From Natronorubrum tibetense GA33 (lineage in GTDB: Archaea; Halobacteriota; Halobacteria; Halobacteriales; Natrialbaceae), in the NCBI RefSeq assembly GCF_000383975.1, contig NZ_KB913021.1, positions 1-64,000 of the forward strand: 64,000 nt of DNA, read 5' to 3'. Below the pieces are notes generated by a model. The model worked only from the letters and a program-made list of their open reading frames with translations. It was not told the origin of the DNA and did not search any database. Position numbers and translations under genes: made by a program. Below are positions 1,631 to 41,560 of the stretch, one piece after another. How positions within the stretch are numbered: the first letter of the stretch is position 1; every line of letters starts with the position of its first letter.

Positions 1631-2044
1631 GTGGAGGAGACTACGAGGCAGGATCTGTTTCATAAGAGTGGTTATGCATTTATTGCAACCGAGGCTAATG
1701 ATCAGGTGGAATTCCCCGGAATGAGGTACGTCTCAAACTCCGAACTGTCAGCAGCGATCGGAATTGTCAATCCTAAATCTGGCGCGAAAATGAGTCCGAG
1801 AGTAGAGAGACTCTTCGCCCAGCTAGTGAAAACGCTGTGGAATATTGGGTTCTTCAACGGCCATCTCGGGACCCTCGAAATCTTCGGGGTCCGCAATCCA
1901 TTTCGGACCGATAGCCTCTCGCAACGTCCGAACCTGCTCGACCGCCCTCTGGAGATAGAGATACCGGCCTGGGTTAACGTGCAGTCTACCATAGTCCAGC
2001 TACGGCCAACGATATCGCCTGGATTAGGAGATGGTTTGCGATGA
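1631..2044 (+). CDS. Hypothetical protein, weakly supported
   Basis: 137 aa from a GTG. The only support is that the frame is open and that its stop overlaps the start of the next gene in an ATGA arrangement (2041-2044), which is common in translationally coupled pairs. Third-position GC is low and the composition is not typically haloarchaeal: less acidic, with many Arg, Ser and Asn. No domain is recognised. It could instead be a leader region or a decayed gene in front of the HEAT gene. Confidence 0.3.
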   Translation: MEETTRQDLFHKSGYAFIATEANDQVEFPGMRYVSNSELSAAIGIVNPKSGAKMSPRVERLFAQLVKTLWNIGFFNGHLGTLEIFGVRNPFRTDSLSQRPNLLDRPLEIEIPAWVNVQSTIVQLRPTISPGLGDGLR

Positions 2045-4233
2045 TCGATCCACTCCCAATAATCGCATATCAAGAGGTAGAAGAGCAGACTAAGAAGCGG
2101 GCTGATGAGTTGGCTTCCACTCTCGGAGACCCGATCCGATCGGACGTCAATCTCAGCCGGCTAAGGGAGCGGCATGCGGCGGCACTAGAGATAACAGAGT
2201 TAGCCAAGTCCGAACCTGCCGCAATTATTCCACACTACGCGATTTTCGTTCATGCGCTTAAGGAGGAACTCGCTCACGAGGACATTAACCGTTCGGCAGC
2301 GACGGCGATGTTTTACGGGGCTGTATCCGAGGAGATCCAGCTACTACTGACTGATGCAATCGAGACAGTTTCGATCGAAGCAGTAGTGGCCCAGTACGAG
2401 GAGTCAGATGAATCGATGTCGTCACTTTTCAATGTTCTTGCACGGGGGGTTACTGAAGGCGGCGAAATCGGAATCATATCGAACTCACTTCGTGCGCTAT
2501 GTGGGTTTGCGAAGTATCGGCCAAAAATGGTCGCGAAGGCCATAGCCGATGAGGGAGACACTTCCGCCGTTCTTAATTTGCTTACACAGATTCTCTATGC
2601 TGTTCTAAATCGAGACTCTGCCTCGCCGTTCAGCGGCGTGAACAAGCGAGGATCGCCGGCGTGGTGGGCACGCCTCATGGCAGTGATCACGGTTCAGTAC
2701 CAGCACCCGGATCACCTACCGTCGACACATCAATTTCGGACGCTCCCGGTCAGGCTGCAGAGCGCGGATGACACTGCGATAACTGTATTTGGAGATCTCC
2801 TCGAACGAACTATGCCGTCCCGCCGCGAAGTAGACTTGGTTCGAGAATCGGGTTGGGAATCGACTCCTGTCTACACACCGGTTCCGGATTCGGTCAAGAC
2901 CCAACCTGTCGAATTGGGGTCAGAGAAAACTACCGAAGCGTCCGATGAGTATGACGAATCAAATCCGTCACCGATCACACAAATCCAACAGAACGGCCCC
3001 GATTCGGATGCCGCAGAAGCATTCGGAGAGGCCATCGCGGCGTGCCCGCAAGTAGTACCCGATCCTCCGTGGTCGCTGATCAATCATGTTCGGGAATTGG
3101 AACAGCGACAGAACGCTACTCGCGCACTCGGTGGTGTCGCAGCCGTAGGTGCTGAAACCCCCTCTGAGCAGATAAAACTGGCAATCCGGTGGATCGACGC
3201 GACTGGAACAATCCGGTGGCGCCAACCCCGAGAGATGCTCGGAGAGATCGTCGCCGCGCATGGAGGCATAATTGAGATCCCGGATCCCATCAGGCCGCTT
3301 GTAGAGAAAGTTAGAACCGGCGTTGGACAACCCCGGGTTGATGCAGCGTTAGCACTCGGTGTGGCAGTTTATGAGAGCGGAGATCCGTCAACCGCTATCG
3401 ATCCGACACCGGTACTACAGCGGTATATACGCGAGGAACAGCCGTTCAGCGATGCTGCCGCAAAAGGACTAGGGGAGGCGGTCATCACAATGGATCCACA
3501 AACGTGCGCCGTTTCGGCGCCATCAATGGCGATTGAACACATTCGTGGGGACATAGGCCGATCGCGAAAGTTCTCAACGCGGGCTCTCGGGCTCTCAACG
3601 ACAACCGACTCTCCCGCCGACCTTCCAACAGGGCTTGTGTTACAGGCCCATACCGGAAAGGGACAGGTTCGATGGATCGCCGGACGAACCCTTGGAGAAC
3701 TAGTCTGGATTTTGGATATTTCCAGTGACTCTACGCCGTGGCCCGATCCTTTACTTGAGCAATTACGTGGCGTTGACAACTCGTTGCGGGTCGAGCATGC
3801 CGAGTTAGTCGGTGTGGCTGTCGCCACCCTGGAAGTCGATGCACATGGGATCGATGAGCCCAATCGGTTGGGCAGGCACAGATCCGTGATGACGGAGGTT
3901 ATGGACGTCGAAGCGGAACCAACTGATGATCCGAGCAGACTAGCTAGATCTAAGCTTTCCGGCCCTGATCGCTTACTTTCGTATGTACTGCTCCGTGGGG
4001 GGCCGGCGCGGCACGATATGCAAGAAGTAGCGGGAGAGTTGGCCGCTGCCGAAGCTATTCCGGAACATACTCCCGCACTCCTTCAACCCCTCGTTCGTCA
4101 GACTGCCAATGCGAACAGTTGGGAACGCCACGACCTCGCTAGAACGCTTGGCGAAGCGGTTGCTATCACGTTTGGTACTGACTCCGGATTTGGAGTCATT
4201 TATACGTTGATGCGACAGGTACGGTGGTGTTAA
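2041..4233 (+). CDS. HEAT-repeat protein, 5' part, cut by IS6-family insertion
   Basis: 730 aa as it stands. The C-terminal two-thirds is made of HEAT-like helical repeats with the recurring pattern (A/T)(R)xLGE at roughly 40-45-residue spacing (for example ARTLGEAV, GRTLGELV). Such repeats form extended scaffolds that bind other proteins or nucleic acid. At 4222 the reading frame runs into an insertion sequence and stops four codons later (RWC-stop). Removing the element and one 8-bp target copy joins codon for codon to 4921-5732, giving an ancestral protein of 997 aa, almost the same length as the 998-aa paralogue at 42045-45041. The truncated protein may still fold because repeat proteins tolerate loss of terminal repeats. 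GC content is lower than in the other HEAT genes here. Confidence 0.8.
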   Translation: MIDPLPIIAYQEVEEQTKKRADELASTLGDPIRSDVNLSRLRERHAAALEITELAKSEPAAIIPHYAIFVHALKEELAHEDINRSAATAMFYGAVSEEIQLLLTDAIETVSIEAVVAQYEESDESMSSLFNVLARGVTEGGEIGIISNSLRALCGFAKYRPKMVAKAIADEGDTSAVLNLLTQILYAVLNRDSASPFSGVNKRGSPAWWARLMAVITVQYQHPDHLPSTHQFRTLPVRLQSADDTAITVFGDLLERTMPSRREVDLVRESGWESTPVYTPVPDSVKTQPVELGSEKTTEASDEYDESNPSPITQIQQNGPDSDAAEAFGEAIAACPQVVPDPPWSLINHVRELEQRQNATRALGGVAAVGAETPSEQIKLAIRWIDATGTIRWRQPREMLGEIVAAHGGIIEIPDPIRPLVEKVRTGVGQPRVDAALALGVAVYESGDPSTAIDPTPVLQRYIREEQPFSDAAAKGLGEAVITMDPQTCAVSAPSMAIEHIRGDIGRSRKFSTRALGLSTTTDSPADLPTGLVLQAHTGKGQVRWIAGRTLGELVWILDISSDSTPWPDPLLEQLRGVDNSLRVEHAELVGVAVATLEVDAHGIDEPNRLGRHRSVMTEVMDVEAEPTDDPSRLARSKLSGPDRLLSYVLLRGGPARHDMQEVAGELAAAEAIPEHTPALLQPLVRQTANANSWERHDLARTLGEAVAITFGTDSGFGVIYTLMRQVRWC

Positions 4234-4912
4234 GTTAGGAACGAGGCGGTCGAAGATTCGGATGCTCATGGCCGAAACCGACCGCCTCACCGAGTCTACT
4301 GACTGGATTGACTTGGAGTTTGTGCAGCGAGAGCGGACACCCCGCGAGATCATTAAAAAGGGTATTCGCCACCATTTGGCCGGATTATCACTTTCGAATA
4401 CAGTTATTCTTCTCGAGGAATTGGGTGTCGAGCGCAGTCGAACAGCAGTTCATAACTGGGTGCAGAAGGCAAATCTACAGCCGAAAGGCGGTGAGAGTCC
4501 GGATCGAGTTGCGGTCGATCAAAAGTCGATCCGAATCAACGACGAGCAGTACTGGCTGTACGCCGCAGTCGACCCAGAAACCAATAGAATCCTCCATTCA
4601 CGGCTGTTTCCGACGTATACGATCGCAATTGCACGAGAATTTCTCACTGAGCTGGTCGAGAAACATGACGTCAAAGACGCCGTGTTTCTCGTCGACAACG
4701 CCGATGATCTCATTGGTGGACTCCGTCAAGAAGGCCTCAGCTACCGAATCCAACCACACGGCTACAGAAATCAAGTTGAACGTGTCTTTCGTGAGGTAGA
4801 ACGACGAACCTCTTCGTTCTCAAACTGTTTTAGCCACGTCGATCCAGCCACCGCAGAAACGTGGCTACAAGCCTACGCCGTCTGGTGGAATCATGTCTAA
4901 GTTAACACGACC
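4223..4912 (+). mobile_element. IS6-family insertion sequence (690 bp) with 8-bp target duplication
   Basis: The element is bounded by terminal inverted repeats GGTGGTGTTAAGTTAG at the left and, read inward from the right, GGTCGTGTTAACTTAG (two mismatches in 16). It is flanked by the exact 8-bp direct repeat ACAGGTAC at 4215-4222 and 4913-4920. An 8-bp duplication and a single transposase gene filling the element match the IS6 (ISH14/ISH15-like) pattern in haloarchaea. The perfect target duplication and intact transposase suggest a recent insertion into the HEAT gene. Confidence 0.93.
4262..4900 (+). CDS. IS6-family transposase
   Basis: 212 aa; a second in-frame ATG six bases on (4268) is an equally good start. 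The DDE catalytic triad is visible: Asp in VAVDQ, Asp in FLVDNAD and Glu in NQVERVF. The N-terminal helix-turn-helix region (LSLSNTVILLEELGVERSRT, about residues 48-67) and the WVQKANLQP segment are characteristic of haloarchaeal IS6 transposases. The frame has no stop or shift, so the enzyme is likely active. Cointegrate formation is the known mode for this family. Confidence 0.93.
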   Translation: MLMAETDRLTESTDWIDLEFVQRERTPREIIKKGIRHHLAGLSLSNTVILLEELGVERSRTAVHNWVQKANLQPKGGESPDRVAVDQKSIRINDEQYWLYAAVDPETNRILHSRLFPTYTIAIAREFLTELVEKHDVKDAVFLVDNADDLIGGLRQEGLSYRIQPHGYRNQVERVFREVERRTSSFSNCFSHVDPATAETWLQAYAVWWNHV

Positions 4913-5732
4913 ACAGGTACAGACAGAAGAGGGAATACTTCGAGATCAAGCGTCTCAGGCGCTTGGCGAAGCGATTGCTGTGTTCGATGACTCTCATCAA
5001 AGTCCAGGTTTGGAGAGGACCCTCGCCAATGCTATCCATGATGCAAGCGGGGTGTCACGGTGGTATCTTGCTCGGGCATTAGGGGAACTTCACGCGGCGA
5101 TAGACAGACCGAACACAGCCCCTAATCCGATGGAGGCACTTATCGATGAAGCAACTGATGGGGATGAGATTGAGTGGTCAGCAACTGTAGCAATTGGGGC
5201 AATAGCGATGGTTGATCCCGACGGGACGGACTTCGTATCAGCCGTTCCCGACGATTTCATCGCTGCAGTTGATCCTACGGGGAAGTCCGATTATCGAGCC
5301 GCTCTTGAGGCGATTGGTTCTGTCGCGCTCGGAATAGGCGACACGTTCGTTACGAAGACCGTGACCGACGCGCTTGAGTCCTCAACAAGAGAGAAACGAG
5401 CCGAACTGTTGCCGATAATAGCGGAGACGGAGGTGTTCTCTCCCGATGAGTTCTTACAACTACTTGCCGATGCTGACCCCGCCGACAGCAGGCAGGAGTT
5501 CAGGACGTACTTCGATTCTGAGATTCGAGATCATGTGGTTTCGGCACTTCAGGCGGTGTCAAGACAAGCAGGAGCCAGCTTGAATATGGATTTGAGGCGT
5601 TCCTTAGAATCAAACTTATCATCAGAAGAGGCGCATACGCTTGATCCCGCAACACGCCTCGCAATGGTGGATTGCTTAGTGGCATATCCAACAGCGACTG
5701 CAGATCGTAATTATGACATTAGCACCCGCTGA
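4893..5732 (+). CDS. HEAT-repeat protein, 3' part separated by the IS6 insertion
   Basis: The host-derived part begins at 4921, after the target duplication, and continues the HEAT frame of the gene starting at 2041. The segment starts with DQASQALGEAI and WYLARALGEL repeats and ends in a helical cap whose last part (DPATRLAMVDCL) resembles the end of the 998-aa paralogue (PPATRLTAIDVL). The ATG at 4893 lies inside the insertion sequence, in frame, so the element could supply a start for a 279-aa fragment. Without such use this is the dead 3' end of the gene. Confidence 0.7.
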   Translation: MSKLTRPQVQTEEGILRDQASQALGEAIAVFDDSHQSPGLERTLANAIHDASGVSRWYLARALGELHAAIDRPNTAPNPMEALIDEATDGDEIEWSATVAIGAIAMVDPDGTDFVSAVPDDFIAAVDPTGKSDYRAALEAIGSVALGIGDTFVTKTVTDALESSTREKRAELLPIIAETEVFSPDEFLQLLADADPADSRQEFRTYFDSEIRDHVVSALQAVSRQAGASLNMDLRRSLESNLSSEEAHTLDPATRLAMVDCLVAYPTATADRNYDISTR

Positions 5733-6269: not shown

Positions 6270-7694
6270 TCATCTGGCCGTCCAGAGAAGCACGATTGAG
6301 ATGAAAAGCGCGATCAGGGAGCTGAGAGTCGCAAGACGAAGTACGACCCTGACAGCGTCTGACCGTGCGGTCGCGGGCCGTAGGTCGCGTTGTCTGTGAT
6401 CACCGCGCCAGTGACGGATCGCGACCGTGACGATCAGCACGAATGCGGACACAGCCACCATCAAGCCCTGGGTGAGGCCACCGACGCCACTCACGGCATC
6501 CACCAAATACCTTCCCAGCGGTGCTGGATGGGCCGCGATGAGGTCTCTCACCGCAGCCCTCCCATGCAAGGCCGTACGCCGAATTACGTCGGCACCGGCG
6601 ACACCACCCACGACGCCGACGACTAGCCCGATAAACGCGGCGAGGACTGCAATACCAGCCTGACGGTAGCGCGCTCGGCTACTGTCGACGACCGTCAGGT
6701 TCGAGGACTCGGCGAGACGTTCAGCCAGGAGTTCTCGGAGGACGCTCTTACTGGTCTCGACGTCGATGGTGGGATCGTTGACCGTTTCACGGTATGCCAC
6801 ATTCAGGTCGTCGACCGCGTCGACCAGACGCCCACGGACGCGTTCCCGCTTGACGTGATCGAGCTCGTCGTCGATCCGATCTTGTGTCTCGGGGAGCGGC
6901 TTCACCCGACTGTCCGACGGGAGGTCGCCGTTCGGGTGGATGACGATATCCGTGTCCTCGACGGTGTCGACGCGGCCCGCTTTCGAGACGGCGATCGTCA
7001 CCGCCGAGTCCGCGAGCGCGGACACCAGAAACGCGAAGAATCGTGCTGCGTCGTACGTCGACTGAACAGTAAAGTCCAGCCCTGCGCCGTCCATGGACGA
7101 GGCAGTCACGTCCGTCACCGACTCGGTCGATCCCCCTCCGTCGGTGGCGTGGTCACCCGTGCGTTTGGGCGGAGCACTTGAATCTGCATCCCGATTCGGG
7201 GCGGCCTCCAGGTCGTCGTCGCTCAAGACGGACCGGTCCCGACCGACGATACCACCTCGCGAGCACTCAAGGCCGATGCCGCTAGTGAGGTCACTCAGCC
7301 AGCCGTCCCACGACTCCTCGCGGCCGCCGTCGACCAGCCGGCGGATGGCGTCGCATTCGGGCTCCGCGACGGGGAGCGGGTCAGCGCTGAGCCCGTCGAG
7401 GGCCCACCGCGAACTCGTCGCATTGTCGGGCGGAGCCTCCGCGACCGAAAACTCCGACTCGCTGCCCTCCTCCACTGCTGGCCTGACTGCCCCAAGGTCG
7501 ATTCCGTCAGCGAACGTGCACTCGACAGTCGCCTGTACCGGGTACCCGAGACGGCCCTCGAAATAACTGCAGACGACGTTGGCTCTCGTGTCCGCGTACA
7601 GCAGGACCACCCCTGGGTCGATGTAGTCCAGTTCGCCGGGGTCGTCGGCGAACATCTCATCGCCGTCGTTTCGGAAGACGCGCACGTCCGGCAT
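6270..7694 (-). CDS. Membrane protein, partner of the adjacent G-domain protein
   Basis: 474 aa, family not recognised. The soluble N-terminal part (about 1-340) starts MPDVRVFRNDGDE and includes an acidic low-complexity linker around residues 150-190. Three hydrophobic helices close the protein: one containing IAVLAAFIGLVVGVVG, one containing GLMVAVSAFVLIVTVAI, and one at the very end containing LSSLIALFISIVLLW. The C-terminus is followed by only a few residues. The gene starts one base after the stop of the membrane GTPase gene, so the two are translated from one message and likely act together at the cell membrane. Function is unknown. Confidence 0.8.
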   Translation of the reverse strand: MPDVRVFRNDGDEMFADDPGELDYIDPGVVLLYADTRANVVCSYFEGRLGYPVQATVECTFADGIDLGAVRPAVEEGSESEFSVAEAPPDNATSSRWALDGLSADPLPVAEPECDAIRRLVDGGREESWDGWLSDLTSGIGLECSRGGIVGRDRSVLSDDDLEAAPNRDADSSAPPKRTGDHATDGGGSTESVTDVTASSMDGAGLDFTVQSTYDAARFFAFLVSALADSAVTIAVSKAGRVDTVEDTDIVIHPNGDLPSDSRVKPLPETQDRIDDELDHVKRERVRGRLVDAVDDLNVAYRETVNDPTIDVETSKSVLRELLAERLAESSNLTVVDSSRARYRQAGIAVLAAFIGLVVGVVGGVAGADVIRRTALHGRAAVRDLIAAHPAPLGRYLVDAVSGVGGLTQGLMVAVSAFVLIVTVAIRHWRGDHRQRDLRPATARSDAVRVVLRLATLSSLIALFISIVLLWTAR

Positions 7695-7695
7695 C

Positions 7696-9282
7696 CTACG
7701 CGTCCCCCTTGATGCGCTGGAGTAGCGATTGGGCGCCGTTGACGTCGATCGGACGCTCCGGAACCGGCTCGCCTTCCGCCAGGGACGCGTCGTGGTCGAG
7801 GTCGTAGTAGACAGGGTAGACGCGGTCGACCTGGGCTTGGTTCACGAGCGCCCCCAGCTTCTCGCGGCCCTCGAGAGACTCGAGCAGGTGGTAGTTTACC
7901 CAGTCGAAGAACGGCAGCCGGGTGTCGACGGTCCGATACAGCTGATAGAGATAGTCCGCCTTCGTCACCACCAGCACGACTTCCTTCTCGTCGAGCATGC
8001 TCTGATCGAGGTGCCTGATCAGCTGCACGTACGTGTCGAGGTACGACGCGAGGTCGTCCTGCGTGTCGTAGTCGCCCTCGCCGTAGGGGACCTCGGGGAC
8101 AAGGCTCCCAGCGTCGACGATGACACACAGCGTGTCCGAGTGCACGATCTGCTTGGCCATCACACGCTGAATCTCGTCGGAGTCCAGCCCCTCGGCTTTC
8201 TCCGGAAGATCCGGTAGACCACGCACGGACTCGTAGGTGTAGACGAGCCACTGCAGGGAGAGCCGGGAGTCCGGGGCGAACGCCTTCACGTACTCGACCA
8301 AGTTCTCGTCGACGTACTCACCAGCGTAGTCGAGGACGTCGACCTGGATGTACTCCTTGAACAGTTCGCCGGCTCTGGTCCGGAACTGGTGGAGGTGGTA
8401 CTCGCCCTTCTCCGTCGGGCCGGTGTACCCGTCGCCGCCGAACCCGTCTTCGTCTTCACCGCCGCGCAGCGATCCAACGAGCGCGGAGAGGGGGCCCGAG
8501 GGGCTCAGGCGCGTGTTTCGTGCACTCTCATCGGCGGCGATGTTGAGTGCTGCCGCCAGCATGGTCTTGCCGGCCCGCTGGACGCCGACGACGAACACGT
8601 CACGCTGTGCCTTGTAACCTGTGAACAGGTAGGCACCCGTCACAAGGACGGACGCGGCGATGAAGTCAGTGAACAGGCCTTCACCGACGAATCTGACCTG
8701 ATTGATTGCAGCGACCTGCATGTGGCCGTCGACCAGCGCCTCCCCCGACGTGTACACCAGATGATGGTCGACGAAGCCGATAGTAACGATCCCCGCGACT
8801 ACCCAGAACAGAGCGGTCGTCACGGCCCGGAACTCGTAAGGCGGGTTATTGCTTCGAAGTCGGCGGCCGCCCGCGAGCAGGAAGGATGCCGCGAATCCGG
8901 CTGCGATCACGGGCGCGTTCTCGACCGGGTACAGCGGATACAGAACCCCGTTGGAACGGAACACCGTCACGGAGATAGCCGAGGCCACCGCTAACAGGAC
9001 GCCCTGGATCCGCTTGATGTCGTCTAACAGCAACAGCGCGACTAGCCCTGCGTACGCACCGAGCCCGAACAGCACGAACTCGCCGTGGCTGATGCCCGCG
9101 AGTTCTTCAAACGTGACGACCGCCGTCCGAATGAGGCCGTCGGACTGCCACGCCGCACTCACCATCCTCGTGACCGTCGGCGTCACCACTGCGATGATCG
9201 CCAGGTAGAACACGAGATCAACTTTCTCCCAAAACTCTGCGAGGCCCTTGTGGTCGGCCTCTGGTTCTTGTGGGTACTGCAT
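7696..9282 (-). CDS. Multi-pass membrane protein with C-terminal small-GTPase-like domain
   Basis: 528 aa. The N-terminal half holds about five or six hydrophobic helices (roughly 22-39, 70-87, 92-107, 123-138, 155-175 and 205-221). A P-loop domain follows: G1 GVQRAGKT at 233-240, G3-like DYAG at 318-321 and G4-like TKAD at 440-443, in the order and spacing of a Ras/Arf/SRPRB-type G domain with a large insertion of Gly and Asp after G1. It should bind GTP on the cytoplasmic face of the membrane. Known membrane-anchored GTPases act in vesicle formation, protein targeting or membrane shape; which applies here is unknown. A decayed copy of the N-terminal half lies at 29150-29640. Substitutions outside the G motifs mean catalytic activity is not certain. 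Confidence 0.85.
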   Translation of the reverse strand: MQYPQEPEADHKGLAEFWEKVDLVFYLAIIAVVTPTVTRMVSAAWQSDGLIRTAVVTFEELAGISHGEFVLFGLGAYAGLVALLLLDDIKRIQGVLLAVASAISVTVFRSNGVLYPLYPVENAPVIAAGFAASFLLAGGRRLRSNNPPYEFRAVTTALFWVVAGIVTIGFVDHHLVYTSGEALVDGHMQVAAINQVRFVGEGLFTDFIAASVLVTGAYLFTGYKAQRDVFVVGVQRAGKTMLAAALNIAADESARNTRLSPSGPLSALVGSLRGGEDEDGFGGDGYTGPTEKGEYHLHQFRTRAGELFKEYIQVDVLDYAGEYVDENLVEYVKAFAPDSRLSLQWLVYTYESVRGLPDLPEKAEGLDSDEIQRVMAKQIVHSDTLCVIVDAGSLVPEVPYGEGDYDTQDDLASYLDTYVQLIRHLDQSMLDEKEVVLVVTKADYLYQLYRTVDTRLPFFDWVNYHLLESLEGREKLGALVNQAQVDRVYPVYYDLDHDASLAEGEPVPERPIDVNGAQSLLQRIKGDA

Positions 9283-15848: not shown

Positions 15849-16742
15849 TCACCCCGGGTTCGCATCAGCGAACGAGAACACGCCAGTGTCGGGATCGATG
15901 TCGACGATGCCAAGCCCGCGGAACCCGAGGTTCAGCATATGCGGCACGCCCCCGGCGCCGTCGCCGGTGTCGTACCCGAAGGCATGGGAGTGCCCACTGA
16001 TGGTCGCGTAGACATCGTGGGTTCTTGCGATGAGGGCAAGTGCGACGGAGCCGGTGTGGAGCCCCTCGCGGTCCGTTTCGCGCGTTCCCGTCGAGTGATG
16101 GCGGTCGAACGTCGTGTTGAACGGGGAGAGGTGCGAGATGAGGACGACGTTCGAACAGTCGCCGAGGAGGCCGGCGAGATGCTCGTACGTATTCTGGACA
16201 GCATCGACGCTCCGGTGAAATGTCTCGCGGTGCTCGGCCGCGATGCCGAGTTCGGCGGCGGCATCGCGAGCGCTCGCTCCGCTGGAGACGACGTCGAAAA
16301 GCGCGTTTTCAATAGCGTCGGCGGTCCGATCGGCCACGTACCGGCGTTCGCCCCGCGGCGCGGTCCGCGGATCCAAGGCTGGGAACGCTGTCTGGTCGAG
16401 CGCGGGTTCGAGCGACCGGCGTTCGCAGCCCCAGCCGACTACCGTGCCCCACTCGCACTCATGGACCGCATCGTGGCCGCTGGTCGCGTTCTCGAGGCCG
16501 TCGGCGACGCGCTCGGGCATCGGCGCGTGGTCGTGATTCCCCGGGACGTACATGACTGGGATATCCGGAATGAACCGCTCTACGAACCGCCGGGCGAGTG
16601 CTACGTCGTCCTCGCCGTCGCGATGCGTGAGGTCGCCTGCCACAAACACTGCATCGAGATCGTCCGGCACAGTCATCGCCTCGACGTCGTAGTCGATCGC
16701 AGCGGGCTTGAGGTGGAGATCGTTACAGACCAATACGCGCAT
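15849..16742 (-). CDS. Calcineurin-like metallophosphoesterase
   Basis: 297 aa from the ATG at 16742 (MRVLVCND); an upstream ATG seven codons earlier is less likely. The five metal-binding motifs of the family are in order: NDLH near residue 8, AGDLTH near 40, GNHDH near 75, SHLSP near 205 and GHSH near 250. It should hydrolyse a phosphomonoester or phosphodiester with a two-metal centre (Mn or Fe); the substrate is unknown. The gene is divergent from the coiled-coil gene at 16850, and the two starts are only 107 bp apart, so they probably share a regulatory region. Confidence 0.9.
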   Translation of the reverse strand: MRVLVCNDLHLKPAAIDYDVEAMTVPDDLDAVFVAGDLTHRDGEDDVALARRFVERFIPDIPVMYVPGNHDHAPMPERVADGLENATSGHDAVHECEWGTVVGWGCERRSLEPALDQTAFPALDPRTAPRGERRYVADRTADAIENALFDVVSSGASARDAAAELGIAAEHRETFHRSVDAVQNTYEHLAGLLGDCSNVVLISHLSPFNTTFDRHHSTGTRETDREGLHTGSVALALIARTHDVYATISGHSHAFGYDTGDGAGGVPHMLNLGFRGLGIVDIDPDTGVFSFADANPG

Positions 16743-16849: not shown

Positions 16850-17566
16850 ATGCTCGTATCGATCCTCTCGAAGACAAAGGCGTGGATGCTGGACCACTCC
16901 GAAGAAACGGATACCCTCACAGAGCTCGACGAGATAGAGCTCCAGCGGCGAATCCACGAAGCAGAACGAAGGACAACCGAGTACCGGGAGCAGATCGAGT
17001 CGCTGCGGGAGCGCTACCGGTCAACCGTACAGCGAGCTGAGCGCGTTGAGGACAGTACGCTCGACATCGTTCGCACGGATCTGGCGGCCGTTTTCAATCG
17101 AACCGCGTTCGCGCGAGCAAAGTTAATCGAGGCCATGCGTGCGACACACGCCCTGCAGCGGCTCGCACTTGCCAAGCGCTCCGATATGTCGATATGTGGG
17201 GTCGATTTCGATCCGGACGCGTTCCCCACTGTCATCCACGACCCGGGCGACCCGGATCCATCGACGGAGGGGTTCGACCCGGTTCCAAACCTCGAACGGT
17301 TCGAGGGGCGGGGCCAGCGCGGACTGGGCGAAGTCGAAGCGAGAGTCGACAATGTGGTGACTGCCGCCCGGAGCGACGGACTAGTACCGACGCTCCCCGA
17401 ATTGTTCGAAACAGACACCGACGACGAACTCGACGGGTACGTCTACGGTCCGGGCAACGACGACGTTGACGAGGGCGAAGCGGATGCCAGCACTCAAGAT
17501 CCAGGACCCCCCGACGTCAACGCGGGCGATGACGACAATAGCGTCACTGATGGGGGGAGCAGTTGA
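16850..17566 (+). CDS. ESCRT-III/PspA-like coiled-coil protein, paralogue of 32640-33305
   Basis: 238 aa. The ATG at 16850 was preferred to a GTG one codon earlier because the paralogue starts the same way: MLVSILSKTKAW here, MLRRIISKTKRW there. Layout: a short amphipathic basic N-terminal helix, a long coiled coil (about residues 28-65), a second helix (about 75-110), a shorter helix after a spacer, and the shared motif VDxxxxAARxDGxVPTLxEL at about 166-185, followed by a disordered acidic tail. This hairpin-plus-tail plan is that of ESCRT-III and PspA/Vipp1 membrane-remodelling proteins, but there is no strong sequence match by eye, so the assignment is structural inference. It is flanked on both sides by metallophosphoesterase genes. 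Confidence 0.75.
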   Translation: MLVSILSKTKAWMLDHSEETDTLTELDEIELQRRIHEAERRTTEYREQIESLRERYRSTVQRAERVEDSTLDIVRTDLAAVFNRTAFARAKLIEAMRATHALQRLALAKRSDMSICGVDFDPDAFPTVIHDPGDPDPSTEGFDPVPNLERFEGRGQRGLGEVEARVDNVVTAARSDGLVPTLPELFETDTDDELDGYVYGPGNDDVDEGEADASTQDPGPPDVNAGDDDNSVTDGGSS

Positions 17567-22160: not shown

Positions 22161-23204
22161 ATGTCCGACGCAGAAGAAGCGTTCGAACTGATGACGAACA
22201 ACACTGTCGAGGCCGTGACGGAGTCGGAACTCCGCGAACTCGCGGCCGACCCTGAGGGCAAGCGCGCGTACGTCGGCTACGAGCCGAGTGGCGTCCTCCA
22301 CCTCGGGCACATGGTTACCGCGACCAAGCTCATGGAACTACAGGAGGCCGGGTTCGAGGTGGTCGTCCTGCTCGCGGACATCCACGCGTCCCTCAATGAC
22401 AAGGGGACCTTGGAGGAGATCCGCGAGATCGCCGAGCGCATGCAAGAAAAGTTCGTCGCGTTCGGCCTCGACCCCGAGCAGACCGAGTTCCTGCTCGGCT
22501 CCGAATTCCAGCTCGACGACGAGTACGTCCTCGACCAGCACGAGTTCTGCGTGGAGACGTCGATGAACCGCGCGAACCGATCGATGGGCGAGATCGCCGG
22601 TGACGACGCCGAGCGCGTCAGTCATGCGGTCTACCCATTGATGCAGGCGCTGGATATCAAGCATCTCGACGTCGACTTGGCGGTCGGCGGGATGGAGCAG
22701 CGGAAGGTCCACATGCTCGCACGAGACGTCCTCCCGAAGCTCGGTGAGCCCGCGCCAACCTGTCTCCACACGCCGCTCATTGCGGACCTCGAGACTGGAA
22801 TCGGGAAGATGTCCTCTAGCGACGGTGTCACCATCAGCATAGAGGATTCGACGATGGATATCGCGGCGAAGGTCGACAAGGGGTTCTGTCCGCCGACTGC
22901 GGATCCCGACCCGGAGGAGCAGCTGTCGAGCGACGACTTGCCTGACGGTGTCGAGCCGGCGGACGTCGAGCTCGAGAATCCCGTGCTGCAGCTGTTCGAG
23001 TTCCACGTGTTCCCGCGGTTCAACACCGTGACCGTCGAGCGCGACGAGCGCTTCGGCGGGGATGTCACCTTCGACTCCTACGACGCCTTGGAGGCGGCAG
23101 TGGAGTCCGGCAATCTCCACCCGGAGGACTGCAAGGCGGCGCTTGCGGACGCACTCGACCGGCTCGTCGAGCTGGGGCGCCGGAAGCTCGCGATCGCGGA
23201 CTGA
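22161..23204 (+). CDS. tyrS: Tyrosyl-tRNA synthetase
   Basis: 347 aa. It charges tRNA-Tyr with tyrosine using ATP. The class I signatures are HLGH at 47-50 and KMSSS at 216-220. Tyrosine-site residues of archaeal TyrRS are in place: Tyr37 in YVGYEPSG, Tyr158, Gln162 and Asp165 in YPLMQALDI, and Gln180 in GGMEQRK. The ATG at 22161 was chosen because the residues upstream are not TyrRS-like and start positions of haloarchaeal homologues fit. The C-terminal region has an acidic insertion (about residues 248-265) that I do not recall in the usual chromosomal enzyme. On a plasmid this is probably a second copy; a resistance variant against a TyrRS inhibitor or a paralogue with a new role are possibilities. 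Confidence 0.95.
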   Translation: MSDAEEAFELMTNNTVEAVTESELRELAADPEGKRAYVGYEPSGVLHLGHMVTATKLMELQEAGFEVVVLLADIHASLNDKGTLEEIREIAERMQEKFVAFGLDPEQTEFLLGSEFQLDDEYVLDQHEFCVETSMNRANRSMGEIAGDDAERVSHAVYPLMQALDIKHLDVDLAVGGMEQRKVHMLARDVLPKLGEPAPTCLHTPLIADLETGIGKMSSSDGVTISIEDSTMDIAAKVDKGFCPPTADPDPEEQLSSDDLPDGVEPADVELENPVLQLFEFHVFPRFNTVTVERDERFGGDVTFDSYDALEAAVESGNLHPEDCKAALADALDRLVELGRRKLAIAD

Positions 23205-28437: not shown

Positions 28438-28929
28438 ATGCGGAACACCACCACGAGCGAGAGCGACGCGTCCGGCTGGAACTGGCTCGGCGTCGCCCCC
28501 GCGGACACCGCGGGCCGCGTCAAGCTCCCCCGCTCCCTGCTCGAAGAGGGCGTCTTCGACCAGCACGAGGAAGCTTACTGGAGTCACGAGACCACCACCG
28601 GCACGCTCGTCGTCTCCTCGGCCCCGCTCGAACTGGAGGGCTACGAGACCGTGGCGGCGCGGAAGATCGGGAGCGAGGCCGACGGTCACCGCTGTACGGT
28701 CCCCCACCAGTACACCGAGGGCGACTCGGACCTGGCGCACATCGCCATCCAGGGCGCCGAGCCGACGTTCGACGGCAAGGAGCGCGTCCACTTCGTCTAC
28801 CACGACGCCGTTATCGAGCGCGAGACGCCGTGGTGCTTCGTGCTCCGTCAGAGCGAGTTCGAAAACCGACTGCTCGCGCCCGGCGACTGGCCCGAGACCG
28901 TCTTCCCGGAATCAACGCGCCTGCTCTGA
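28438..28929 (+). CDS. Hypothetical protein, AbrB-like fold suspected
   Basis: 163 aa from the ATG at 28438 (MRNTTTSESDASG). Two segments look like a swapped-hairpin AbrB pair: GRVKLPRSLLEEGVF with ETTTGTLVVSS, and HRCTVPHQYTEGD. AbrB-type proteins bind DNA as transition-state regulators or antitoxins, but the motif here is weak. No toxin gene is adjacent. The start follows the end of the small gene upstream by 5 bp, so both are on one transcript. Confidence 0.6.
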   Translation: MRNTTTSESDASGWNWLGVAPADTAGRVKLPRSLLEEGVFDQHEEAYWSHETTTGTLVVSSAPLELEGYETVAARKIGSEADGHRCTVPHQYTEGDSDLAHIAIQGAEPTFDGKERVHFVYHDAVIERETPWCFVLRQSEFENRLLAPGDWPETVFPESTRLL

Positions 28930-29149: not shown

Positions 29150-29640
29150 TCAGCCGGTGGCACAGAGGAGCGTGGCCGAGGGGAGGAGTGCAATGCGTGC
29201 AGCGACGATGACGGCGGTGAGCGCGAGCTGAAAGAGGTCCGCGCCAACGAGCGACAGCTGCGTGACGGTGGCGAGCTGGAGTTGGCCGTCGGCGAACGAC
29301 ACCAGCGTCGTGTACGGCAGGTGGCCGTTCGACCGGAATCCAGCGACTGCGAGCAGTACGCCCTGCACGCGGTTGATATCGTCGAACAACAATAGCGCGA
29401 CCAGGCCGGCGTACGCACCAGGACTGAACAGGACGAGCTTGAGGCGGCTCGCCCCTATCAGTTCTTCGAACGTGACGACTGCCGTCCGACTCAGGCCGCC
29501 GGACTGTCAGGCCGTAGTTACAATCACCATCACCGCCGGCGTCACTGCCGCGATGTGCGCCAGATGCGCCAGATAGACGACGATGCCTACTCTCTCCCAG
29601 AACTCTTGGAGACCGTCGTGGTCTCGCTCCGAAACAACTG
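29150..29640 (-). pseudogene. Decayed N-terminal copy of the membrane G-domain gene
   Basis: Read on the - strand this aligns with the N-terminal half of the gene at 7696-9282: GLQEFWERVGIVVYLA matches GLAEFWEKVDLVFYLA, then RTAVVTFEEL is identical in both, and DDINRVQGVLLAVA matches DDIKRIQGVLLAVA. A stop (TGA) at 29507-29509 stands where the intact gene has Trp45, and a block of about 70 residues is missing after FRSNG. The G domain is absent. It is thus a dead, internally deleted duplicate. Only about a hundred bases separate it from the start of unrelated sequence on both sides. Confidence 0.85.
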
Positions 29641-29742
29641 GTTGCTGGCGTGCAACACTAGTTTCCGGCGAAGCCACCCCCAAGGCGGGAGTCGCGTATA
29701 CAGCCTTCGCAATCCGGAGTTGTTTGAAGCAGGCGTGCTCGG

Positions 29743-32508
29743 CTAGCGCGCGCCCTGGCCTCCAGCGGTAGCCGTTACCGGAACGGCTCGACTGTCGGTC
29801 TCGGCCAGCAGTGAAACGATCCGCACTCTCGATTCGACCGACGAGACGTCGTCCAAGTGATGAACCAGTTGCTCGACAATCGGTTCCGGCAACGAACGAA
29901 CGCCCTCGAGGGTCGAAACCAGTTCGATGACTGCCTCCTGTGTCCGCTCAATCCCCGCCAGTGCGCTCTCGACGAGCAGGCGATCTTCGTCAGGACCCGA
30001 CTGTAAAAGCAGATAGACGACTCTAGAGGGTTCGATGACACCAGCACGGAGTGCCGACTCGAGCAATTCGAAGCCAGCCGTCGACCCACCTTCTTCCTGG
30101 AAGTGATCCGCAAACCGTTGCCTGTCCGGGGATTCCGAGTGTCGGAGTTCCACGGCTCGAAGCGCTCCGAGCTCCTGGGCATAAGTCCGCGCTCTTCGAG
30201 TCCGAACCCGTGACTTGGCGTGCGTGATGAGAGGGTCGTCCTCGCCCCAGTCGGAGTACGCGGTGATGATGCCGAGTACCGTGGGATCGTCTGCTAGCTG
30301 TGCGCTGATCGCCTCGCTGGGCCCGTACGCGAGTGCGATTACGTATCCGGTCGCGACGTACAGTCGTCGTTTCTGGGGCGATTCCTGCGAGCGAACCGCG
30401 TCCCACATTCGACGTGGGGTGCCCTCGAGTCGCTGTGGTGCTCTGTATCCAGCGCCGAAGGCGAGCGCTGCTGCCACCGATCTGGCGCGGGGGCTTGCTT
30501 CGTTAGCCACCCGTTCGGTCAGGATATCGAGCGCCTGTTGTATCTCCGAAATGCCCACTATTCGTTCGATCTCGCCGGCGATTCTCGCGGCCGTACTTGG
30601 TTTCAAGCCGCCCTCTCTGTCCGTTGCCGCCCGTAGCCCGTCGAGTTCCGCGGCCGAGTACGCGGTTTCGTCTGCGAGCAGTATCCAGCCACAGAGTTCG
30701 GATGCGAACGCATCGTCGATCAGGTCCGAATCCCACTCCAAATCGCCGACCGACAGTTGCTTAGTCGGAGACTCCTCGGCCGCCGACCGAAGGTGCCGCA
30801 CGGTTCGCACGGAATCCCCGTCGTGAGCGACGACGAATCCGAGTGCCTGTGATGCGCGCTCGTTCGACGAGAGTCCACCGGCTCGGGCCTGTTCCGCGAG
30901 TGTTTCGATTACGGAGTCTTGGACACTGTCGTCGAATGCCGCTAACGTTCCGAGTGCCGTCGCCGCTTTTCGACACCCGGGCGTGTCACTAGCACGAACG
31001 AGCACAGCGAGGTTCTTGGAGAGCGATGCGTCGTCGAATACGAAACTAAAGGTGACAAGCAACCCGAGTCGTTTGGCGACCTCGGAATCGATACGGGAGG
31101 TATCCGAGACAGCCGATGCCATCACTCGTTGGATCGGCTTTGGAGGACTGTAGGAGTCGGCCGAAGCGACCACCACGCCGAGGGCAGCCTGTGCTTTCTC
31201 GGGCCAGAACGTTGGCGTCTCGAAGGCCTCAGCGACGTGTTCGGCGAGCCCCTGTACCGTTTCGCGTTCGTCGTGGGGATCACCGTACGCCGAAATGTAG
31301 CCGAGGACACTTTCCGGATCTCCGAGCAGTGGCCGAGCGCCAGAACGCGGCTCGTCTCTGAGGGTAGTCGCGAGTTCGTTGACAACATCGACCGTGTCGT
31401 CTGAATCGAGGTAGGCTGTAGCCCTACCGAGTATCGGGAGAAGTTCTTGCTGGCCAATCGGCGACGTTCGTACGCGCTCGGCTAGCGCTTCGAGGTCGAC
31501 CCCAGTTGGCGAGAGTGCGCCGATCGCGATGAGGTTGCCGAGGACTTCGGCCGCCCGCTTCCACGGGTATGCGGGTCGGGCATAGATATCGGCGCAGAGT
31601 GCTTCGATCGCATCACTCTCCGTATCGGCATCGTAGAGCAAAGTGAACAAGAGCCCGAGTATCTCGGCGGCCTCCCCTCGGTCGAAGCTAGTTTCGTTCC
31701 TCACGACACGCACGAGAGTCTCGAAGATAGCCGACGTTGACACCTCCGACTCAAAATCGGTCTTCCGAGAGAGTGCTGCCAGACCGATGGCTCCCCAGAG
31801 GATTCGGGCGTCTCGACCGCCGACACTGTAACCCTGTAGTTCGTCGAAAGGCTCGGCAGCCAGTTGCAGTGCATCCGTCACGGATGGGCGCATCGCTACG
31901 GCTCTTGGCGCCTGCAGAGCGACGAGTGCGAGGAACCGGATGGCAGCGGGGGTCGATCGAGACGCTGAACGATCGGATCCCGACCTACGGAGTTCGTCGA
32001 TGACGTGGTCGGCAACCGCATCGGCCGTCGTGGAGATATCGATCCGGTCAGTGACGAGGACTGGATCACGGAGTACGAAGCCGTCGAGTACTTCTATCGC
32101 GTGGTCGGCGACGGGCATGGCCCCTGTTTCGACCATCGTCGTTTCGAGGGCGTCCAGAACGACGTGCTTCTCGGCAGTATCGAGTTGCGTCGCGAGAGTG
32201 TCGAGATCGAAGGCGGCGAGCGTGGCTGCGAGGAGCCGACGGCTGTCAGCGATCACGTCGGAGACACCGAACACGGCAGCCGCTGAATCGGGCTCTGGAC
32301 GAGTGAGCAGCCGAGACAATTGATCGGCGACCGGAGCAGAGAGATCTTGGGAGGCTACGTCCTCTTCCGCGTATTCGAGCGCCCGTTCGCACAGGTCTCG
32401 ACGTTTGAGGATCGTCGAAGGCCCGGGATTGCGCGGTAACGGTGTCTGAAGTTCATCGACGATCCTCGCAACGTCCGTTTGGGCCCGGTCCGGAAGTCGC
32501 CGAGTCAT
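29743..32508 (-). CDS. Large HEAT/ARM-repeat protein
   Basis: 921 aa, starting MTRRLPDRAQTDVARIVDEL at 32508. The protein is helical repeat throughout, with recognisable units such as KRAAEVLGNLIAIGAL and CRKAATALGTLAAF, and its end (SVESRVRIVSLLAET) resembles the final cap of other HEAT genes here. No catalytic motif. It is divergent from the ESCRT-like gene at 32640, with 131 bp between start codons, so shared control of scaffold and remodelling module is plausible. Confidence 0.82.
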   Translation of the reverse strand: MTRRLPDRAQTDVARIVDELQTPLPRNPGPSTILKRRDLCERALEYAEEDVASQDLSAPVADQLSRLLTRPEPDSAAAVFGVSDVIADSRRLLAATLAAFDLDTLATQLDTAEKHVVLDALETTMVETGAMPVADHAIEVLDGFVLRDPVLVTDRIDISTTADAVADHVIDELRRSGSDRSASRSTPAAIRFLALVALQAPRAVAMRPSVTDALQLAAEPFDELQGYSVGGRDARILWGAIGLAALSRKTDFESEVSTSAIFETLVRVVRNETSFDRGEAAEILGLLFTLLYDADTESDAIEALCADIYARPAYPWKRAAEVLGNLIAIGALSPTGVDLEALAERVRTSPIGQQELLPILGRATAYLDSDDTVDVVNELATTLRDEPRSGARPLLGDPESVLGYISAYGDPHDERETVQGLAEHVAEAFETPTFWPEKAQAALGVVVASADSYSPPKPIQRVMASAVSDTSRIDSEVAKRLGLLVTFSFVFDDASLSKNLAVLVRASDTPGCRKAATALGTLAAFDDSVQDSVIETLAEQARAGGLSSNERASQALGFVVAHDGDSVRTVRHLRSAAEESPTKQLSVGDLEWDSDLIDDAFASELCGWILLADETAYSAAELDGLRAATDREGGLKPSTAARIAGEIERIVGISEIQQALDILTERVANEASPRARSVAAALAFGAGYRAPQRLEGTPRRMWDAVRSQESPQKRRLYVATGYVIALAYGPSEAISAQLADDPTVLGIITAYSDWGEDDPLITHAKSRVRTRRARTYAQELGALRAVELRHSESPDRQRFADHFQEEGGSTAGFELLESALRAGVIEPSRVVYLLLQSGPDEDRLLVESALAGIERTQEAVIELVSTLEGVRSLPEPIVEQLVHHLDDVSSVESRVRIVSLLAETDSRAVPVTATAGGQGAR

Positions 32509-32639: not shown

Positions 32640-33305
32640 ATGCTCCGACGCATCATATCGAAGACTAAGCGCTGGGTGAACGTCAACGTCATCGGACGCT
32701 CTCCCATCGATAACATGAGTCCCCTCGAGCTCGAGCGCCGAATCCGGAAGCTCGAGCGCCAGAAACAGGAGTACAAGAGCGACATGACTAGCGCGAAGAA
32801 GGAGTACGACGAGAAGATCAAGGAAGCACAGAACGCCGACGAGACGCGCATCCCGGAGATCAAGTCCGAGGCGTCGCGGCTCCTCAGCAAGTACGAGGCT
32901 ATCCGCTCGCAGTGGATGGAGACGCTCGTCGGCTTGCGGTTCATGCAGCAGGCCGCGCTCGGCAAGCAGATCAGTGCCGACGGCCCGGAGGCGTTGCCAT
33001 CGAACATGAACCCCCGTCAGTTCGAGGCGGCCGCCCAGTCTATCGAGGAAAAGATAGGGCGGCGCGAGGATCGCCTCGACGAGTGGGGGATCGCCGCGAA
33101 CCGCCTGGAGGACATCAGTCAGGGCGGGTCGGCGCACATCGAGGCAATGGCGGACGAGCGTGTGGACGCGGCGATCGACGCCGCGCGGGACGGCGATGAG
33201 GTCCCCACCCTCGAGGAACTCGCTGACGACACGTTCAGCGACGTCGAGGAGAGCGTGTCCGAACCCGAAGCCGCCTCGTCGACCGGGCAGGCCGAGCACT
33301 TCTAG
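32640..33305 (+). CDS. ESCRT-III/PspA-like coiled-coil protein
   Basis: 221 aa from the ATG at 32640; an upstream in-frame extension without a gene-like composition was rejected, because the paralogue begins with the same amphipathic helix. Layout: basic N-terminal helix MLRRIISKTKRW; first long helix (about 28-66, LELERRIRKLERQKQEYK); second helix (about 71-108); third helix (about 126-158); conserved tail motif VDAAIDAARDGDEVPTLEEL at about 175-194; acidic end. A basic helical hairpin followed by a regulatory tail is the plan of ESCRT-III and PspA/Vipp1 filaments that bind and bend membrane. The next gene, 26 bp on, is a Vps4-like ATPase, which in other systems disassembles ESCRT-III. Linkage makes the call more likely but does not prove homology. 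Confidence 0.78.
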   Translation: MLRRIISKTKRWVNVNVIGRSPIDNMSPLELERRIRKLERQKQEYKSDMTSAKKEYDEKIKEAQNADETRIPEIKSEASRLLSKYEAIRSQWMETLVGLRFMQQAALGKQISADGPEALPSNMNPRQFEAAAQSIEEKIGRREDRLDEWGIAANRLEDISQGGSAHIEAMADERVDAAIDAARDGDEVPTLEELADDTFSDVEESVSEPEAASSTGQAEHF

Positions 33306-33331
33306 CGGTTCAACCACTTCCCCTTTCATTC

Positions 33332-34600
33332 ATGAAGTACGATGCTTACCGGATAGAGATACTACGAGAACAGTACGAGGACTCGTTCAAGTCCGCCCAA
33401 GAGCACCGCCGAGCTGGCCGCAAGAAGGCGGCGGCGAGAGCGTACGCAGACGCCGCGGAAACGCTGTCGAAACTGGACGATGCGACCAACGAAGACCGTG
33501 CGCATCAGGTGAAACGCTTGGAGCGGGCGGCAGACATTCTGCGTCGCGGCGAGGACCTCGAGGACCACTTCAAGCGTAATCAGGAGCCAGAAGATGACCG
33601 AGGCGACGGTGGTGGACCGCCATCTGTTGGTGGTGACAGCGAGGACGACGAGATGCGCGCACAGATGGAGTCGTTCATTGCGGAGACCGAGACGACGTGG
33701 GCGGACATCGGCGGCCTGGATGATGTCCAGCACGACCTGAAGCGCGCGGTGGCGCTCGGCTCAATCGCGAACAAGCCCGATGCGGTGTCCGCGACCGAGC
33801 GGATACTGCTCTTCGGCCCCCCAGGGACTGGCAAGACGTTGCTCGCGAGTGCTGTTGCCGGGTCACTCGATGCCAACTTCTTCAAAGTCGAACTCGGGAA
33901 CCTCCTGTCGAAGTGGTACGGCGAGTCCTCCAAGCAGATCTCGGCGCTGTTCGAGACCGCAGCCGAGTTGAGTCCGAGCGTCGTCTTCCTCGACGAGGTA
34001 GACTCGCTCGCGCAGTCACGGGACGGTGATATGAACGAGACGTCACGACGGGTGCTCGACACGTTGCTCGCAGAACTCGACGGCGTCGAGAAGGGGAGCG
34101 ACGACTTCGTGCTGACGCTGGCGGCCACCAATACCCCCTGGATTCTGGACAGTGCGATTCGGAGTCGATTCCCGAAGCGCATCCACGTCCCCCTTCCGAA
34201 CGTCGATGCTGCAACCGAGATTATTCGAATCCACACGGTCGACGGCGGCGTCGCGTTCGAGGGCCACCCTAGCGCGTTCGTCGACGACTCAAAACACGCT
34301 CGGGGCGTTGACAGTCCCGAACGCGCCATCGCCCAACGCTGCGTCGAGGATGGCTACACCGGCCGGGACATGGAGGCGCTCTGCAGTGCCGCGGTGAACA
34401 ACATGGTCACGCGGCACAACCCCGACCTCGCGCACCTCGTCGACGAGAGCGTCAAACGCCTGCGCTCACACACGCTCAACCTCGGCCGCATCAAACCGCA
34501 GGACGTCACCCACGCGTTCGCGACCACGTCACCCTCGCTCCCAGAGGAAGACGTCGCGCGCTTCTACGACTGGGATGACGAATACGGTTCCCGGACCTGA
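33332..34600 (+). CDS. Vps4/katanin-type AAA ATPase with MIT-like N-terminus
   Basis: 422 aa. Residues 1-80 form a three-helix pattern like an MIT domain (about 15-75, with AAARAYADAAETLSKL and KRLERAADILRR). A disordered linker follows. The AAA domain begins TTWADIGGLD near 121: Walker A GPPGTGKT at 162-169, pore loop KWYGES at 194-199, Walker B VVFLDE at 217-222, sensor 1 in TNTP near 267, and arginine fingers Arg277/Arg279. The end FPKRIHVPLP is a hallmark of the meiotic clade (Vps4, katanin, spastin), unlike Cdc48. These enzymes pull apart filament subunits with ATP. The upstream coiled-coil gene is the likely substrate. Activity is not shown by sequence, but all key residues are present. 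Confidence 0.92.
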   Translation: MKYDAYRIEILREQYEDSFKSAQEHRRAGRKKAAARAYADAAETLSKLDDATNEDRAHQVKRLERAADILRRGEDLEDHFKRNQEPEDDRGDGGGPPSVGGDSEDDEMRAQMESFIAETETTWADIGGLDDVQHDLKRAVALGSIANKPDAVSATERILLFGPPGTGKTLLASAVAGSLDANFFKVELGNLLSKWYGESSKQISALFETAAELSPSVVFLDEVDSLAQSRDGDMNETSRRVLDTLLAELDGVEKGSDDFVLTLAATNTPWILDSAIRSRFPKRIHVPLPNVDAATEIIRIHTVDGGVAFEGHPSAFVDDSKHARGVDSPERAIAQRCVEDGYTGRDMEALCSAAVNNMVTRHNPDLAHLVDESVKRLRSHTLNLGRIKPQDVTHAFATTSPSLPEEDVARFYDWDDEYGSRT

Positions 34601-40748: not shown

Positions 40749-40978
40749 CGACCCACCTCCGCGTCGGTGATGTGGAGTCGCGATGTTCGGGATGATCGAA
40801 TGTCTGGAGTCGCGAGCGTCATCTCACTCGAACATCACCCCTCGATCGGATAGTGGGGCCTGGCGATGCACAACTACTGTAACGTTAGGAGTGGGACACG
40901 AGCGCGAGCTACTACACGGCCTGTAGGCGCACACAGCGACCTAAACGGCCAGTGCACGGAAACTCACGTGAGTCATCC

Positions 40979-41560
40979 ATGCATCCCGAACCGCACGATT
41001 CAGCGTTCTACCGCACCATCATCGAACATCTCGTCGACGACTGCCCGTGGGACTCAATCAACGGCGATGTCAGGCCGAGCCGCGTCGCTGCAACCGCGGC
41101 CGACCCAACCGCCGTCGCCGAACTCCAGCTGACGCACCTCTTGACTGACGCGGAGCTATACTGCCAACTCCCCGGCCCCGGCGACGGTTCGGCCGCACAT
41201 CTAGTCCTCTACCAGGGACTCGACCATGCGCTCGATGGCACTGGTGAACCGAGCGACGACGGGTTTGTAGAAACCCTCTCGGCAGCACACGAGACCATCG
41301 CGAGCGTTCACGAGAGCGAGTACGTCACGCCCGTTGCAGACCCCACCATCATTCTCGAGGCACACGTCCCGCACAGCTACACCGAGAGCAAGCTGTATTC
41401 GATGATGACCGCAATTTCGGCGACCGCGCTTCGTGTCCAGCGCCTGCATGGCGAGCTCCGAACAACGGTGAACGCCGTCTCGAACGTCGAGTCTGACGGC
41501 GGCCACCGACGCTCCCCGCTCGTATTTGAATCCAGCGTTGAGTCGGCATGTCAACGGTAG
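40979..41560 (+). CDS. Hypothetical protein next to the helicase
   Basis: 193 aa from the ATG at 40979 (MHPEPHDSAFYRT). The composition is haloarchaeal (acidic, GC-ending codons), with helices such as TAVAELQLTHLL and SYTESKLYSMMTAISATALR. No known domain. It is divergent from the helicase gene, with 230 bp between starts, and may be under a shared control region. Its job is unknown. Confidence 0.65.
   Translation: MHPEPHDSAFYRTIIEHLVDDCPWDSINGDVRPSRVAATAADPTAVAELQLTHLLTDAELYCQLPGPGDGSAAHLVLYQGLDHALDGTGEPSDDGFVETLSAAHETIASVHESEYVTPVADPTIILEAHVPHSYTESKLYSMMTAISATALRVQRLHGELRTTVNAVSNVESDGGHRRSPLVFESSVESACQR

Follow-up and report, generated by a model that had tools for sequence, protein, structure and literature searches.

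A haloarchaeal GTPase/partner pair of the FtsZl1-operon family occurs without adjacent FtsZl1, together with a candidate ESCRT-III-like coil protein and a Vps4-type AAA ATPase

The archaeal membrane GTPase of FtsZ-like-1 (FtsZl1, Tubulin_2) operons was described by Makarova and Koonin (2010; PMC2875224). Membrane remodelling is the function proposed there for the FtsZl1 system, and a reviewer of the same paper proposed transport or signalling instead (PMC2875224). Two further described systems have GTPases with features in common with the one presented here. DO-GTPase systems (Kaur et al., 2020; PMC7159879) contain a TRAFAC GTPase, in some cases with N-terminal membrane helices, and a conserved glutamate near the G3 motif. 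ArvA, the vesiculating GTPase of Haloferax (PMC10927574), is an archaeal Arf-like GTPase linked to membrane deformation, and is encoded in an operon with arvB/arvC. Among the archaeal ESCRT systems, the ‘Main’ euryarchaeal clade comprises loci of the kinase/phosphatase/Snf7 type (Makarova et al., 2024; PMC10936438). It is usual to regard tubulin-like polymers as one machine and ESCRT polymers as another.

The window, i.e. the whole stretch of DNA that was analysed, spans 64 kb at the start of contig G000:C5, which is 166 kb long. The relatives of this contig are haloarchaeal and a ParA-type gene lies near its start, and therefore the contig is probably a plasmid. The features of the window that are discussed below are collected in Table 1.

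Table 1. Position of the features in the window, with the evidence for each; membrane helices and protein types are predictions.
Position	Strand	Feature	Evidence or remark
6270-7694	-	Partner membrane protein, FtsZl1-operon-type N-terminal domain and three C-terminal membrane helices	ORF of 474 aa
7696-9282	-	Membrane GTPase, about six N-terminal membrane helices and a cytoplasmic G domain	ORF of 528 aa
11076-13658	-	Protein with HEAT-like repeats, encoded upstream of the GTPase; of uncertain membership	Sub-threshold Pfam HEAT match (E 0.0036)
16850-17566	+	Second, divergent coil paralogue	Coil profile E 5e-13
28438-28929	+	Small protein	Reciprocal best hits on all three plasmids
29318-29647	-	Decayed second copy of the GTPase gene	Residues 2-114, 62-66% identity, one internal TGA
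29743-32508	-	Large protein of helical repeats, flanked by the GTPase remnant and the coil/AAA pair; of uncertain membership	ORF and position
32640-33305	+	Coiled-coil hairpin protein, candidate ESCRT-III-like subunit	Strong homologues on the three GTPase plasmids only (391 genomes)
33332-34600	+	Single-domain AAA ATPase, Vps4/CdvC type, MIT-like N-terminus	PDB and NCBIfam matches
40952-41560 (elsewhere called 40979-41560)	+	Small protein	Reciprocal best hits on all three plasmids

The preliminary description had reported a GTPase that spans the membrane with about six helices, its gene one base away from that of a second membrane protein, and this arrangement was confirmed: exactly one base (7695) separates the stop of the GTPase gene from the start of the partner gene. 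The GTPase carries the motifs G1 GVQRAGKT (residues 233-240), G3 DYAGE (318-322) and G4 TKAD (440-443). Since these motifs are kept at matching columns in an alignment of 13 homologues and are found again in almost every inspected locus with a P-loop, they are not a chance occurrence. The AlphaFold2 model, which is of moderate quality (mean pLDDT 60.8), places six long N-terminal helices (11-46, 66-85, 91-110, 120-136, 147-174 and 203-221) before a domain of alternating helices and strands. With a plain hydropathy threshold the number of segments varies among homologues from three to seven, and the figure of about six predicted membrane helices was taken from the model and the alignment. In the partner, a strict hydropathy reading puts the membrane segments at 348-366, 408-426 and 450-468, in the C-terminal part. 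The dN/dS value of the GTPase against its Halomicrobium urmianum counterpart is about 0.3 by a simple method; by this sequence measure the gene is therefore under constraint.

Residues ~222-528 of the model were compared with known structures using VIA-align on Foldseek's top 1000 chains, with rows within 1 Z treated as tied. The 50 best rows were GTPases or GTPase-containing complexes (Z 10.3-11.6), among them ARL2 with tubulin cofactors (11.6), Era (11.3), YcjX (11.3), and also Rab, Ras, Rho and MglA. Foldseek itself gave no match with E below 0.001, a PDB sequence search with the GTPase gave no match, and scans of genome contigs and viral contigs found no relatives. Together, the sequence motifs and the predicted fold speak for a real G domain, as had been proposed, and for one of the TRAFAC type. 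A STAND or ABC ATPase was ruled out, because the best structural rows are GTPases, with neither a STAND nor an ABC protein among the 50, and because TKAD and DYAGE are conserved; the absence of a G-fold or a P-loop of STAND or ABC type, named beforehand as grounds for rejection, was thus not observed. As regards the narrower proposal of an Arf/SRPRB-like domain, ARL2 heads the list of folds in a tie with Era, YcjX, Rab and Ras, and Arf/SRPRB is not singled out. The GTPase can be likened to ArvA by description, the latter being described with an amphipathic helix in contrast to the predicted six-helix anchor of the window GTPase.

The preliminary description did not recognise the plan of this pair. 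However, the plan is known, as it is that of the membrane-associated GTPases adjoining FtsZl1 that were described in 2010 (PMC2875224). The window GTPase has the Walker A, Walker B and TxKD-type motifs of that system and belongs to the same GTPase family, and the order of the pair is also the same: directly downstream lies a partner whose N-terminal domain is that of FtsZl1-operon partners (profile E 2.8e-5), with no named Pfam family found in a Pfam scan of this protein. A profile search detected the GTPase family in 55 genomes of a sample of 391 from the class (not all of its genomes), with genes called by a simple purpose-written script backed by six-frame profile searches. The usual order in the inspected haloarchaeal loci is FtsZl1 (~1050 residues, with a Tubulin_2 domain), GTPase, partner, and an annotated Methanohalobium plasmid has the same layout of a tubulin-like protein, a GTPase and a third membrane-type protein.

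The window departs from this layout in three respects. Firstly, the pair has no adjacent FtsZl1 gene: none was found in the window or in the remainder of the 166-kb contig, and a search for a hidden copy in the interval from the GTPase to the HEAT gene upstream of it detected none. The only Tubulin_2 protein of the genome above the cut-off is a divergent chromosomal one of 778 residues (L044:9385-11721, G000:C1) in a different context; it adjoins a small predicted secreted or membrane protein, away from any GTPase of the family. Secondly, the partners of FtsZl1 loci have one membrane helix after the N-terminal domain and often beta-sandwich domains, whereas the window partner is predicted to end in three membrane helices and has no beta-sandwich tail. 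Thirdly, the window plasmid also carries the coil and AAA genes. No vWA domain was detected in the subset of window genes scanned for it.

The beta-sandwich domains past the membrane helix would be compatible with a transport or signalling complex in place of membrane remodelling, as would the M48 membrane peptidases encoded nearby on two of the plasmids. Domain scans, however, found no transporter domain in the GTPase, the partner, the coil protein or the AAA protein, and the ESCRT-like neighbours point to membrane scission, which makes this explanation very improbable.

In a tree of 36 GTPase sequences, 26 loci have an FtsZl1 gene, three are plasmids with the coil and AAA genes, and seven have neither; the branches are long and the placement of the Halobaculum rubrum sequence is not settled. 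Four loci (L026, L027, L028 and L036) form a well-supported clade of GTPase/partner pairs without neighbouring FtsZl1 or coil. Two others (L039 and L040) each have two GTPase-family genes, the FtsZl1-adjoining copy without a P-loop and the second copy with one, an arrangement that resembles the ‘double GTPase’ idea.

The AAA protein can be assigned to the Vps4 type by its PDB match, its CdvC match and the loci of its relatives. The best single-stretch PDB match is yeast Vps4 (206.7 bits, near full length); the Cdc48 D2 domain scores 167.5, and Cdc48 outranks Vps4 only when its two domains are summed. The alignment to the NCBIfam CdvC model begins at residue 22 and extends into the MIT-like N-terminus, and the MIT domain alone gives a weak match (E 0.32). 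Matches of this protein to IetA in PADLOC were judged to be generic AAA similarity. Plasmids from Halomicrobium mukohataei, Halarchaeum and Thermococcus peptonophilus encode homologues of the AAA protein beside small helical proteins; on the Halarchaeum and Thermococcus plasmids, kinase and PP2C genes are also present. The AAA of the Thermococcus ESCRT locus (E about 1e-80) passes the Vps4_C cut-off and has in its vicinity a gene that matches Snf7 below the threshold. The coil protein is modelled as an N-terminal helix followed by a long hairpin (pLDDT about 90). Its fold matches include ESCRT-III and Vipp1 chains among many ties, unrelated hairpins included, and such hairpins are common. It shows weak homology to one coil of haloarchaeal ESCRT loci; this comparison and that of the AAA with ESCRT-locus proteins, like those of the GTPase remnant and the HEAT proteins, give E-values from sets of very few sequences. 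No Snf7 Pfam match was obtained, profile comparison with ESCRT-III gave a signal not above the coiled-coil control, the best Foldseek E was 1.4, and the coil profile matched among PDB sequences only spike-protein coiled coils, judged to be chance. The coil protein is thus regarded, from its sequence and model, as a candidate for ESCRT-III and not as a member. The window pair shares with the ‘Main’ clade (PMC10936438) a Vps4-like AAA with an MIT-like N-terminus and an adjoining ESCRT-III-like coil, and the relatives of its AAA lie in kinase/phosphatase/Snf7 loci. In contrast to that clade, no kinase or phosphatase was seen alongside the window pair, which is linked to a membrane GTPase.

Only two close counterparts of the window were found by gene content, namely plasmids of Halomicrobium urmianum and Halobaculum rubrum, whose GTPases are 61% and 28% identical to that of the window. 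The H. urmianum partner is 45% identical; the H. rubrum members are divergent, and the partner matches at E 0.007 only. FtsZl1 is absent beside the GTPase on both plasmids, and neither genome has an above-cut-off Tubulin_2 protein (G336 no match, G263 a single sub-threshold match of 388 aa). The GTPase, the partner, the coil protein (~220 residues) and the AAA protein all occur on the three plasmids, the window's contig being a probable one. Across the 391 genomes, coil matches at E below 1e-100 were found only in G000, G336 and G263, which are the three genomes with a window-type GTPase pair without FtsZl1; the profile was built from those three plasmids, which had been the first to be noticed, and two of them had been found via the GTPase. 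All other matches are weaker than ~E 1e-10, and no fourth close member was found in the sample. The hypergeometric chance of this three-genome overlap is ~1e-7, a figure that assumes independence, takes no account of possible plasmid kinship and may not hold for related plasmids.

The distances between the genes vary. On the H. urmianum plasmid the start of the GTPase gene faces the coil gene (225 residues), the two being divergent and 247 bases apart, and the AAA gene follows the coil. On the H. rubrum plasmid the coil lies 4.4 kb from the GTPase and the AAA gene is nearer. In the window, the coil/AAA pair (32640-34600) lies 23 kb from the intact GTPase and 3 kb from the decayed second copy, in which no G domain was found. 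The coil tree, with 100/100 support, sets the three GTPase-plasmid coils apart from the coils of ESCRT loci that have no GTPase, although the AAA tree fails to group the AAA proteins of the three plasmids.

These observations bear on whether the four genes belong together. The pair may be an ordinary one of the FtsZl1 family that no longer has FtsZl1 and works by itself or together with other factors of the host, the coil and AAA genes being an unrelated ESCRT locus on the same plasmids. The seven GTPase loci with neither FtsZl1 nor coil agree with this, and in five such genomes the Tubulin_2 search returned nothing or only matches of 362-382 aa (CetZ/FtsZ size); some plasmids that lack any GTPase of the FtsZl1-operon family have related coil/AAA loci, and the AAA does not track the GTPase in the tree. 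Against it stand the exact co-occurrence in three of three cases among 391 genomes, the direct adjacency of GTPase and coil on the H. urmianum plasmid, the GTPase remnant near the coil/AAA pair of the window, and a distinct coil subfamily confined to the GTPase plasmids. This explanation is held to be possible, though short of an even chance.

The other genes of the window offer further observations. A calcineurin-like phosphoesterase (15849-16742), divergent from the second coil paralogue, has reciprocal best hits across all three GTPase plasmids. A Trp/Tyr-type aminoacyl-tRNA synthetase gene (22161-23204) lies on this probable plasmid, and lysS is found near the GTPase on the H. rubrum plasmid. 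Several large HEAT-like repeat proteins, some mutually similar, are encoded on the one plasmid (2041-5732, 23321-27349 and 42045-48743), and an IS6-family transposase (4262-4900) between the HEAT-like ORFs 2041-4233 and 4893-5732 suggests that it broke up one large gene. On the plasmids of H. mukohataei and Halarchaeum, too, HEAT or PDS5-like genes lie close to ESCRT loci. The helical-repeat protein beside the GTPase remnant had no Pfam match. HEAT proteins were dropped as a conserved part of the set: none was seen close to the GTPase on either of the other plasmids, the HEAT profile had been built from the window's own proteins, and direct comparison of the three window proteins behind that profile gave no significant mutual similarity.

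A 1625-residue DUF4011/helicase/MTES_1575 nuclease protein (35871-40748) may have a defence role, and this plasmid setting raises the question of a conflict or defence module related to DO-GTPase systems, with the GTPase as a threshold switch at the membrane. The glutamate at the G3 motif, as described for DO-GTPases (PMC7159879), and an HHalign probability of 94-95% to one archaeal DO-GTPase2 member (a distant link) are in line with it, and DO-GTPase2 profiles match weakly (15.1 bits, below the Pfam cut-off of 27). Unlike in those systems, however, the partner has no Pfam GAP1, GASH or effector match; neither the GTPase nor the partner matches a PADLOC model, and the usual neighbour of the GTPase family is FtsZl1. 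A defence module is thus considered quite unlikely.

The best explanation, to which a probability of about 0.5 is given, is that the three plasmids carry a variant of the FtsZl1 GTPase/partner unit that has no FtsZl1 and is associated with an ESCRT-III-like coil and a Vps4-like AAA. We read the ESCRT-III/Vps4-like pair as standing where the tubulin-like polymer usually does, i.e. as one version of a membrane-remodelling module already known. In such a module, the six-helix anchor would keep the G domain at the cytoplasmic face of the membrane, and the N-terminal domain of the partner would sense GTP binding. The GTP-bound switch would recruit or license a cytoplasmic polymer, FtsZl1 in most archaea and probably the coil protein on these plasmids, which the Vps4-like ATPase would remodel or disassemble, so that the membrane is bent or cut. 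Physical coupling of the four proteins is presumed in this scheme, as is a coil that is a true ESCRT-III. The 23 kb by which the coil/AAA pair of the window is separated from the intact GTPase, the lack of grouping in the AAA tree, the weak homology of the coil to ESCRT-III, the divergence of the H. rubrum members and the seven loci with neither FtsZl1 nor coil all weigh against this explanation. Moreover, as all three cases are plasmids (the window's probably), the genes could be shared cargo.

The earlier idea of a possible role in vesicles or membrane shape agrees with the published prediction for the FtsZl1 system, and the ESCRT-like genes add some support to it. A bolder version, in which some haloarchaeal plasmids have their own ESCRT-like cutting machine under a membrane GTPase, with the tubulin-type polymer exchanged for an ESCRT-III-type one, possibly for vesicle release or plasmid spread, is regarded as unlikely. 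No link was drawn to the self-encoded plasmid vesicles of the pR1SE type, as the text of that paper names no GTPase, AAA or coiled-coil gene.

Summarizing, the new part is a window-type pair without adjacent FtsZl1 on plasmids that carry the coil and a Vps4/CdvC-type AAA. No report linking an FtsZl1-family GTPase to ESCRT-like genes was found in the literature searched, and a text search of PMC10936438 found no GTPase-ESCRT link. One GTPase/partner unit occurring with either polymer would suggest a shared membrane-anchored switch. The GTPase, partner, coil and AAA form a small gene set for probing membrane remodelling in genetically tractable haloarchaea, and would help to assign a function to a GTPase family that has been uncharacterised since 2010 in the literature found.
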